Of a stretch of DNA of 64,000 bases, positions 11,112-12,593 are shown one piece after another. This DNA comes from Runella defluvii (GTDB taxonomy: Bacteria > Bacteroidota > Bacteroidia > Cytophagales > Spirosomataceae): assembly GCF_014195535.1 (NCBI RefSeq), contig NZ_JACIBY010000001.1:248001-312000 (forward strand), written 5' to 3'. The notes under the pieces were generated by a model that worked only from the letters and a program-made list of their open reading frames with translations, did not search any database and was not told the origin of the DNA. Made by a program: the position numbers and the translations under genes. Positions within the stretch are counted from its first letter, which is position 1. The number at the start of each line of letters is the position of its first letter.

Positions 11112-12269
11112 TTAACCAGCAACAACTATCTCACGAGCAAGCTCTACCAAATCTTTGTCGTTTACTTCTTTTTTGATGTCGGCTACGTCCAAGAATTGCT
11201 TGTAAATAATGTCCAACGTTGCTTTATCGAACGTATAACCCAACAATTCCAAACGGTGCTTCAACGCGTGGCGACCGCTACGAGCCGTCAACACAATCAT
11301 TGATTTATCCACACCCACGTCGGTAGGGCTCATAATTTCGTAATTGAGGGTATGTTTCAAGAAACCATCTTGGTGAATACCCGAAGAGTGTGCAAACGCG
11401 TTACGCCCCACAATCGCCTTGTTGGCTTGTATTGGCATACGCATCATTTTTGAAACCAATTGGCTGGTAGGGAAAAGCAACTGAGTATTGATGCCCGTTT
11501 CGTATCCTAATTCTTTGTGTACATTGAGAGCCATCACCACCTCTTCCAACGACGTATTTCCAGCCCGTTCGCCAATTCCGTTCATCGTTACTTCCACCTG
11601 ACGGGCTCCGTTCATGATACCAGCCAAAGAGTTGGCCGTTGCCAAACCAAGGTCGTTATGACAGTGAATCGAAATAGTCGCAAGGTGAGCGTTTGAGGTA
11701 TTTTCAAAAATATACTTGATTTTGTCGCCATACTCATTAGGCAAACAATAGCCCGTTGTATCTGGGATATTTACAACCGTAGCTCCTGCTTTGATTACTG
11801 ACTCTACCAAATGTGCCAAGAAAGCCACATCCGCACGTCCCGCATCTTCACAATAAAACTCTACATCCTCTACGTACGACTTGGCGTGTTTTACGGCGCC
11901 AATCGCTTGTTCTACGATTTTCTCACGTGTGCTGTTGAATTTGTGCTGAATGTGAATATCGGACGAACCAAGTCCCGTGTGAATCCGTCCGCGTTGAGCA
12001 TATTTGAGGGCTTCTCCAGCGGCATCAATATCCCCTTTTACGGCGCGTGAAAGGGCGCAAATAACAGGCTGACGAACAGCTTTTGAAATTTCTACCACCG
12101 AACGAAAATCACCAGGGCTCGAAACAGGAAAACCCGCTTCGATGATATCAACACCCAGTTTTTCGAGTTGTTGTGCTACCACAATCTTTTCATCGGTTGT
12201 CAATTGGCAGCCAGGCACTTGCTCGCCGTCCCGCAACGTGGTGTCGAAAATTTGGACTTTTTGGCTCAT
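11112..12269 (-). CDS. leuA: 2-isopropylmalate synthase, short form without regulatory domain
   Basis: A 385-residue enzyme condensing acetyl-CoA with 2-oxoisovalerate, the committed step of leucine synthesis. The TIM-barrel motifs are clear: [12 protein letters not shown] near the N terminus and [15 protein letters not shown] with the metal-binding histidines, then [17 protein letters not shown]. Full-length LeuA proteins are about 500-570 residues and end in a leucine-binding regulatory domain; here the protein stops soon after the catalytic subdomains (about residue 385), so leucine feedback inhibition of the usual kind is not expected. A leucine attenuator (12328-12436) precedes the gene. 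Homocitrate or citramalate synthase are alternatives in this family, but the Leu-rich leader supports leuA. Confidence 0.87.
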
Positions 12270-12327
12270 TGTGTGTAAAGAGAAATTATAAATTGGTTAG
12301 ATTTCGACTTTTGGGATTTTTATTCAC

Positions 12328-12356
12328 AAAAAACCCTTTCTCAACGTGAGAAAGGG
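12328..12356 (-). terminator. Leucine attenuator: intrinsic terminator in the leuA leader
   Basis: On the minus strand CCCTTTCTC (12356-12348) pairs with GAGAAAGGG (12342-12334) across a short loop, followed by six T (12333-12328). It lies upstream of leuA, not after it. Its 5' arm is also able to pair with GTGAGAAAGG (12386-12377), a perfect 10-bp match, giving an alternative antiterminator. A third stem, CTCACA (12400-12395) with TGTGAG (12387-12382), can sequester that segment. This is the complete protector / antiterminator / terminator set of a translation-coupled attenuator. Confidence 0.88.
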
Positions 12357-12382
12357 CCTTTTTACTACAAAGGTTTCCTTTC

Positions 12383-12436
12383 TCACATGACCTGTGTGAG
12401 GAGAAGACCGAGAATATTATTAGGTTGTAATGTCAT
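12383..12436 (-). CDS. Leucine leader peptide (leuL-like) of the leuA attenuator
   Basis: A 17-codon ORF, MTLQPNNILGLLLTQVM, ATG at 12436 and TGA at 12385-12383, about 114 bp upstream of leuA. Five codons are Leu (TTA, CTC, CTT, CTC, CTC), four of them in the cluster L-G-L-L-L, plus one Ile and one Val. The last Leu codons overlap the protector arm (12400-12395) and the stop codon overlaps the antiterminator arm (12386-12377). A ribosome stalled at the Leu cluster would free the antiterminator; one that reaches the stop would cover it and let the terminator form. It is too short for ordinary gene finders. Confidence 0.85.
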   Translation of the reverse strand: MTLQPNNILGLLLTQVM

Positions 12437-12477
12437 AAATTGTGTTGCGAATTTTCGCTGTACGCGTATTTCTTCTA

Positions 12478-12507
12478 CAAAAATAGCGGAATAATTTTTT
12501 GGTGCAA
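12478..12507 (-). promoter_or_regulatory. leuA promoter
   Basis: On the minus strand TTG (12507-12505), a 19-bp spacer and TATTTTTG (12485-12478) match the Bacteroidota consensus exactly. Transcription would start near 12471, about 35 nt before the leader peptide ATG. Confidence 0.75.
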
Positions 12508-12593
12508 AAAGTTTTCAAAAAAAATGTAGCGGTATATAAATTTTGTTCTTGCCGCAGATTTTCCTATTTTTCTACAAATAAAGCAGAAATACC

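Follow-up and report, generated by a model that had tools for sequence, protein, structure and literature searches.

Does a leucine-rich leader peptide control transcription of the lone leuA gene of Runella defluvii, and is the same arrangement found in its relatives? In enteric bacteria, the attenuator of the leu operon (leuL) controls leuA through a Leu-rich leader and protector, antiterminator and terminator stems. Bacteroidota ribosomes largely ignore Shine-Dalgarno sequences, and gene control in this phylum is less studied. A preliminary description of the 64-kb stretch of DNA analysed here (the window) had proposed a complete leucine attenuator upstream of leuA. The comparison with relatives now provides evidence for textbook attenuation in Cytophagales and in Bacteroidales-type genomes, starting from one lone gene.

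Leader and stems upstream of leuA

The leuA product scored 595.5 bits against the NCBIfam equivalog NF002086 (cut-off 532). Its only Pfam domains are HMGL-like and HCS_D2, and no Pfam match to the C-terminal allosteric domain LeuA_dimer was obtained in the LeuA of the window; a second LeuA-type protein of the same genome, located next to leuCD, carries this domain. leuA stands alone between a GMC oxidoreductase gene and a glycerophosphodiesterase gene, both on the plus strand. The remaining pathway genes form one cluster elsewhere in the genome, interspersed with unrelated genes, which holds ilvD, ilvB, ilvN, ilvC, threonine dehydratase, leuC and leuD (both identified by aconitase domains) and the second LeuA-type protein.

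Read on the minus strand, the region runs from promoter through a 12-bp palindrome, leader ORF, three strand-sharing stems and six T residues to leuA (Table 1). The coordinates previously given for the stem arms, leader ORF and U6 tract were all exact on the sequence. Five of the 17 leader codons specify Leu (codons 3, 9, 11, 12 and 13, being TTA, CTC, CTT, CTC and CTC), and the claimed overlaps of the Leu cluster with the protector arm and of the stop codon with the antiterminator arm are as described, codon 13 overlapping strand 1 and the TGA (12385-12383) overlapping strand 2. In the antiterminator (2:3), 12386-12377 pairs with 12355-12346 over 10 bp with zero mismatches; in the terminator (3:4), 12356-12348 pairs with 12342-12334, a stem of 9 bp that becomes 10 bp with the next pair. 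The features of the attenuator class are thus present at leuA, namely a Leu-rich leader, an intrinsic terminator before the gene and an antiterminator that has a strand in common with it.

Table 1. Features of the leuA leader region (positions in the window)
Feature	Position	Strand	Sequence and remarks	Basis
Promoter, -33 box	12505-12508	minus	TTTG	sequence
Promoter, -7 box	12478-12485	minus	TATTTTTG (TAnnTTTG); 19 nt after the -33 box	sequence
12-bp palindrome	12447-12458		GCGAAAATTCGC (plus strand GCGAATTTTCGC); candidate operator or 5' RNA hairpin	
Leader peptide ORF	12383-12436	minus	MTLQPNNILGLLLTQVM; 17 codons; stop TGA 12385-12383	
Strand 1, protector arm	12395-12400	minus	CTCACA; pairs with TGTGAG 12387-12382, -6.5 kcal/mol	
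Strand 2, antiterminator 5' arm	12377-12386	minus	GTGAGAAAGG; holds the leader stop codon	
Strand 3, common to antiterminator and terminator	12346-12356	minus	CCTTTCTCAC 12355-12346; CCCTTTCTC 12356-12348	
Strand 4, terminator 3' arm	12334-12342	minus	GAGAAAGGG; terminator -16.3 kcal/mol	
U6 tract of terminator	12328-12333	minus	T6 in DNA	sequence
leuA, 2-isopropylmalate synthase	11112-12269	minus	385 aa	NCBIfam NF002086 and Pfam

The promoter was recognised by eye and follows the box consensus known for Bacteroidota. The consensus promoter of the preliminary description stands as a Bacteroidota-type TTTG-N19-TATTTTTG and not as an E. coli sigma-70 consensus; the best sigma-70 site agreed at 9 of 12 positions, and the sigma-70 scan gave no excess over shuffled sequence, two sites being counted against 1.6 in shuffles. 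Transcription would start a few nucleotides downstream of the -7 box, near 12473.

Among 5,000 dinucleotide shuffles of 12270-12510, a leader having four Leu in five codons appeared in 17 and a terminator of the required strength in four, and none contained leader and terminator in order. Across both strands of the window, the leuA leader is the sole place with this combination, and the fold of 12470-12326 has a z-score of -3.78 against 200 shuffles. These counts bear on a simpler reading, in which the hairpin simply ends antisense or upstream transcripts as an ordinary intrinsic terminator, the Leu-rich ORF is adjacent by chance and nothing is switched. The hairpin is indeed terminator-like on the opposite strand as well, and a simple terminator scan reported it on the plus strand only, though T6 follows on the minus strand; in addition, moderate-score covariance-model matches in the phylum are often ordinary terminators. 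The absence of the leader-terminator combination from all 5,000 shuffles argues against this reading, as do the conserved and covarying strand 2 and 2:3 pairing, and the leader codons, stop position and strand spacing kept in dozens of loci (see below). We regard a plain terminator as very unlikely.

The anatomy, together with the conservation, covariation and geometry observed in relatives, points with high confidence to a classical ribosome-mediated transcription attenuator answering leucyl-tRNA charging, and leuA would very probably be transcribed only under leucine shortage, by way of a switchable terminator. Start site, translation, termination and leucine response are predictions of this model. 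Polymerase would begin near 12473 and make the leader RNA, with a ribosome translating close behind. When charged tRNA-Leu is ample, the ribosome would reach the stop codon and cover strand 2, which would leave strands 3 and 4 to pair and transcription to stop in the U6 tract. When Leu-tRNA is scarce (by the codons, mainly the CUC/CUU isoacceptor), the ribosome would stall on Leu codons 9-13 with its front edge just short of strand 2; strand 1 would then be masked, strands 2 and 3 would pair and polymerase would continue into leuA. If the leader is untranslated, stem 1:2, where it exists in Runella, would favour termination. In silico, with strand 2 free and the whole leader transcribed, the terminator fold (-23.6 kcal/mol) is still favoured over the antiterminator piece (-20.3 kcal/mol), so that the predicted switch must be kinetic.

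The leader might instead act on the translation of leuA, by coupling or re-initiation, as leader ORFs near a gene can do (PMC4833913). The 113 nt between leader stop and leuA ATG are far from the 11-14 bp peak described for Bacteroidetes (PMC4833913), and a strong terminator with U6 lies between leader and gene, which makes an effect on translation rather than transcription extremely unlikely.

Conservation, covariation and ribosome geometry in relatives

Loss of the Leu codons or stems in relatives had been named beforehand as the result that would count against the attenuator; both proved to be conserved, with compensatory changes and fitting ribosome spacing. Upstream regions were compared at 48 leuA places from 59 related genomes (50 with a match) and at 80 added loci of named genomes, 112 of the 128 regions being distinct. 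The nearest named loci are from Runella, for example R. limosa DSM 17973, whose LeuA is 99% identical. A covariance model, R1, was built from 42 leuA leaders and matched the leuA strand (E <= 0.01) at 23 of the 48 places in related genomes (L001-L017, L019-L021, L028, L031 and L046), 14 of which had been in model building and nine outside it (L002, L003, L006, L010, L012, L013, L019, L020 and L046). All 12 Runella leuA places have the element by this model. Leader and hairpin are present at one further place (L018), which R1 missed.

Beyond the related genomes, a class-wide sample covered 148 genomes (44 with a match, 35 of these near full length at >=60% identity) and provided 33 leuA loci absent from the earlier sets. 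R1 matched five of them (G285, G293, G391, G394 and G426). An automatic detector of leader, terminator and antiterminator found three of the 33, and one in 330 shuffles; compared with R1, it is too strict. Several class-wide leuA genes lacking the element closely follow another frame, in some cases leuB as judged by eye from its last residues, and might do without a separate leader. The combination of Leu-rich leader, antiterminator and terminator was seen in Runella, Dyadobacter, Telluribacter, Rhabdobacter, Persicitalea and Bacteroidales-type genomes. The distribution is patchy, not universal, and comprises Spirosomataceae and some Bacteroidales-type genomes. A missing allosteric domain in LeuA was considered as a reason for having an attenuator and is unsupported by the class-wide genes: the five with the element have open frames of 502-512 codons, and many short leuA genes are without it.

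Covariation was assessed in two alignments, A1 with 46 Spirosomataceae rows selected by us and A2 with 15 Bacteroidales-type rows; in both, the cells come from related sequences and represent few independent events. In A1, 92.3% of terminator cells were paired (slid controls <=76.7%) and 86.7% of antiterminator cells (slid controls <=78.2%). Double-change cells numbered 16 in the terminator, a value reached by 1 of 500 shuffles, and 28 in the antiterminator, reached by none of 500 and by no slid control (<=14). Two other counts were less discriminating: for pairs showing a double change, 43 of 500 shuffles attained at least the observed number in the terminator and 283 of 500 in the antiterminator; for further pair types, 386 and 492 of 500 did so, respectively. 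Column 142, in strand 3, forms AU 24, GC 12 and GU 10 with its strand-2 partner and UA 18, UG 16 and CG 12 with its strand-4 partner; this co-variation with both strands fits the demand of two exclusive helices. In A2, 88.5% of terminator and 89.6% of antiterminator cells were paired. Each helix had four double-change cells, a number reached in 11 of 500 shuffles for the terminator and 5 of 500 for the antiterminator; the pair types were reached in 334 and 271 of 500, respectively. Strands 2, 3 and 4 thus covary, more weakly in A2 than in A1.

The three stems of the preliminary description did not fare alike. The 2:3 and 3:4 stems are kept and covary in relatives, whereas the 1:2 protector appears to be a Runella feature: all 12 Runella loci have the motif CTCAC-N5-14-GTGAG, which was also found at 3 of 15 Bacteroidales-type loci but at none of 33 Dyadobacter loci and none of 12 loci from other Spirosomataceae. 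Because the 1:2 stem is rare outside Runella, the core device appears to be two-state, with 2:3 and 3:4 as the alternatives.

From the 112 distinct regions, 73 showing a leader and the strand-3 motif were taken. One (L068) was removed since its ORF had been picked in the wrong frame, and ribosome positions were examined for the remaining 72 leaders, with the assumption that the front edge lies 15 nt downstream of the first base in the P site. In 72 of 72, no more than 4 nt of strand 2 would stay uncovered by a ribosome at the stop codon. With the ribosome at the last Leu codon, strand 2 starts 0-13 nt beyond its edge in 62 of 72, and the overlap with strand 2 is <=3 nt in 68 of 72. In the R. 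defluvii leader, strand 2 is fully covered at the stop and exactly free (0 nt) for codon 13.

In all four groups of leaders, 22-27% of the codons specify Leu, compared with 9.2% in the long ORFs of the window; the most Leu-rich ATG ORF at the proper location was taken as the leader, a selection that favours Leu. The choice among Leu codons is also biased. In the 12 Runella leaders, which are related so that their 45 Leu codons are not independent draws, TTG is absent (0 of 45, against 36% in long window ORFs, where it is the commonest Leu codon) and CTC makes up 58% (against 15%). TTG reaches 7% in Dyadobacter leaders and 13% in Bacteroidales-type leaders, and a Runella subclade (L006-L012) has leaders with only two or three Leu codons. 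Since TTG is avoided and CTC enriched, the Runella leader probably reads the CUC/CUU tRNA-Leu isoacceptor.

A palindrome behind the promoter

The palindrome between promoter and leader occurs at one place in the window and at four in the 8-Mb genome, so it is not a general repeat; by eye, the three other places lie away from amino-acid genes. The pattern GCGAAnnTTCGC was found at 55 of the 73 leader loci and at none of 15 Bacteroidales-type loci. In 29 of these 55 (L001-L021, L057-L061, L067, L097 and L098), the palindrome is preceded at 18-19 nt by a TAnnTTTG or TAnTTTG box; two have a -7-like box at 46 nt and 24 have no box recognised by pattern. The distance from palindrome to the next ATG is 1 to 20 nt.

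A similar arrangement occurs at ilvD. In G013, G017 and G022, TATATTTG is followed after 22 nt (by eye) by the palindrome, an Ile/Val/Leu leader and a terminator. The palindrome also lies upstream of ilvD at three loci (L195, L196 and L198) in which searches for a terminator and for an R1 match were negative; at L195, a short Ile/Leu/Val-rich ORF precedes ilvD.

The palindrome therefore raises the question of whether a DNA-binding regulator at GCGAAWWTTCGC (12447-12458) is the main control of leuA, with the attenuator secondary. Such a regulator would account for the palindrome at 55 of 73 leader loci, for its set spacing from a -7-like box in 29 of them, and for its presence before ilvD even at the three loci without terminator or R1 match. 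It would have no counterpart at the 15 attenuator-bearing Bacteroidales-type loci, which lack the palindrome, and the site is a candidate operator for which a 5' RNA hairpin is the alternative. We consider main control by a regulator unlikely. Alongside the attenuator, the evidence points to the palindrome as a putative operator for a branched-chain regulator.

In Spirosomataceae, GCGAAWWTTCGC follows the promoter both at leuA and at ilvD, as seen in the window and at L190, L191, L192 and L198. A 13-mer, AGCGAAWWTTCGC, which misses leuA palindromes starting with a base other than A, was found at 15 distinct places in eight related genomes picked by us: seven at leuA or ilvD (G012, G016, G017 and G022), four before a small ORF (G015, G023, G027 and G036) and four elsewhere. 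Its reversed control was found in only one of the eight (G012). The small ORF behind the palindrome in four genera is MKxxLWLFPVAL-like and about 35-40 codons long by eye (L278, L280, L282 and L283, around 1501). In G018 (L199, 646-797), the palindrome is followed by an R1 match and leader MKLGLIFVGVILILV, about 700 nt before ilvD with another frame between.

Known attenuators and further leaders in the phylum

The mechanism class is already known, and the leuA leader is a further case of the classical attenuator. It has the Leu-rich leader, three stem types and leuA control of enteric leuL; it differs in phylum, in preceding leuA alone and in its CUC/CUU control codons, the enteric control codon being CUA. 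At gathering score, Rfam families gave no match in the 64-kb window (leu leader, Leu/phe leader and Bacteroid-trp included), and the best hit of a permissive scan of 12270-12520 was rli38 on the opposite strand, at 27.3 bits against a threshold of 49. Lopatovskaya, Seliverstov and Lyubetsky (2010) reportedly surveyed attenuation across bacteria and may already list Bacteroidetes leuA.

Comparable devices have been described in several phyla. In Staphylococcus aureus, a leucine-rich attenuator peptide is likewise cis-acting and leucine-responsive in branched-chain synthesis, but this is a Firmicutes system that serves a branched-chain biosynthetic operon and is combined with CodY (PMC5794164). 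The Corynebacterium glutamicum ilvBNC attenuator is described by a three-hairpin model with terminator, antiterminator and anti-antiterminator of overlapping arms, in Actinobacteria and at ilvBNC rather than leuA (PMC11857589). The preliminary description had named Proteobacteria and Actinobacteria as the best-described groups; attenuation has already been proposed in Bacteroidota (PMC9723704). In Flavobacterium psychrophilum, a member of this phylum, amino-acid operons have been proposed to be controlled by leader peptides on the same principle as in Runella, and the main text of that source contains neither 'leuA' nor 'ilv' (PMC9723704). The same phylum and principle apply to the Bacteroid-trp motif, RF01692 in Rfam (PMC2864571).

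More surprising than the leuA switch itself are the shared palindrome, the biased control codons and the stacked attenuators in the sister operon. R1, which was built from leuA leaders only, found a second place in the R. defluvii genome at ilvD (E 0.02). Here (G000:C6:21588-21949; L172 and L178), two Ile/Val leaders, MIIRTKNSVILVSIITPSTV and MFTITGVVVVLIISTQMV, lie in series, and a separate hairpin with a T run belongs to each. Across 12 Runella ilvD places, both leaders were present in four and the second alone in eight (one near a contig end). Ile/Val-rich leaders at ilvD, a Leu-rich leader at leuA and a LeuA without allosteric domain together suggest that leucine-specific control is separated from the ilv-leuCD cluster in the Runella genome.

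Upstream of trpE in the same genome (L177, G000:C15), the leader MNPNVKNTSWWWRSSFPR contains Trp-Trp-Trp and is accompanied by a terminator and a complementary upstream arm, both seen by eye; this is likely a tryptophan attenuator. Rfam at family thresholds gave no match in the trpE leader loci L156 and L177, and no convincing His or Thr leader was found in this genome.

A search of 392 genomes of the phylum with R1 gave a match (E <= 0.01) in 140. As a genome-wide detector, R1 is reliable at high score only: its weak matches in one genus (41 genomes), which include pairs of matches in G572, G575 and G581, look unspecific and often fall on both strands of one hairpin. Of 29 loci (L143-L171) inspected by eye, 18 were read as amino-acid genes preceded by a suitable leader and the other 11 as ordinary terminators; nine of the 18 downstream proteins were profile-checked, L148 by Pfam only. 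The best R1 places include ilvE, ilvD, ilvN-like, leuA, trpE, aspartokinase and prephenate dehydrogenase genes, whose leaders, by our reading, have many codons for Ile/Val, Leu, Trp, Thr or Tyr. By eye, Thr-rich leaders precede aspartokinase genes at L160 and L166, and a Tyr-Tyr-Tyr leader with a GTG start precedes prephenate dehydrogenase genes at L164 and L170.

Tandem leader and terminator units were found in seven Bacteroidota genomes (G140, G396, G277, G083, G311, G460 and G536) upstream of ilvE, ilvD or ilvN-like genes (L241, L242, L243, L151, L244, L250 and L257), six of them as two R1 matches and the one in G083 by leader scan. L203 was rejected as a tandem, its second R1 match in series having no fitting leader. 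From the first T run to the second ATG there are 12-29 nt in six of these genomes and 102 nt in G536, and no TAnnTTTG box was found between the units in any of the seven. Given the short gap and the lack of a box between them, both units are probably on one transcript. Among the open-access full texts searched, the sole tandem leader-ORF transcription attenuator found was Salmonella mgtCBR, where a single transcript carries two successive leader ORFs that respond to ATP and proline (PMC3641672). Its stem-loops are unlike intrinsic terminators and its authors call it a singular example; the tandem ilv leaders resemble it in their serial leader ORFs and differ in signals and terminator design (PMC3641672).

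We tentatively suggest, as a possibility that falls somewhat short of being probable, that the branched-chain attenuators of Bacteroidota (leuA, ilvD, ilvB, ilvE and ilvN-like) are one family by descent, with a similar GUGAG / CCUUUCUCAC / GAGAAAGG core, multiplied in series behind a single promoter and joined in Spirosomataceae by a palindromic operator, at set spacing from the promoter, shared between leuA and ilvD. If so, the termination probabilities of two like units in series would multiply, and the response would be steeper and tighter than with a single unit. The tandem ilv units are a natural system in which to ask what a second attenuator adds to the first. In G311 (L244/L149), an apparent third unit was seen by eye.
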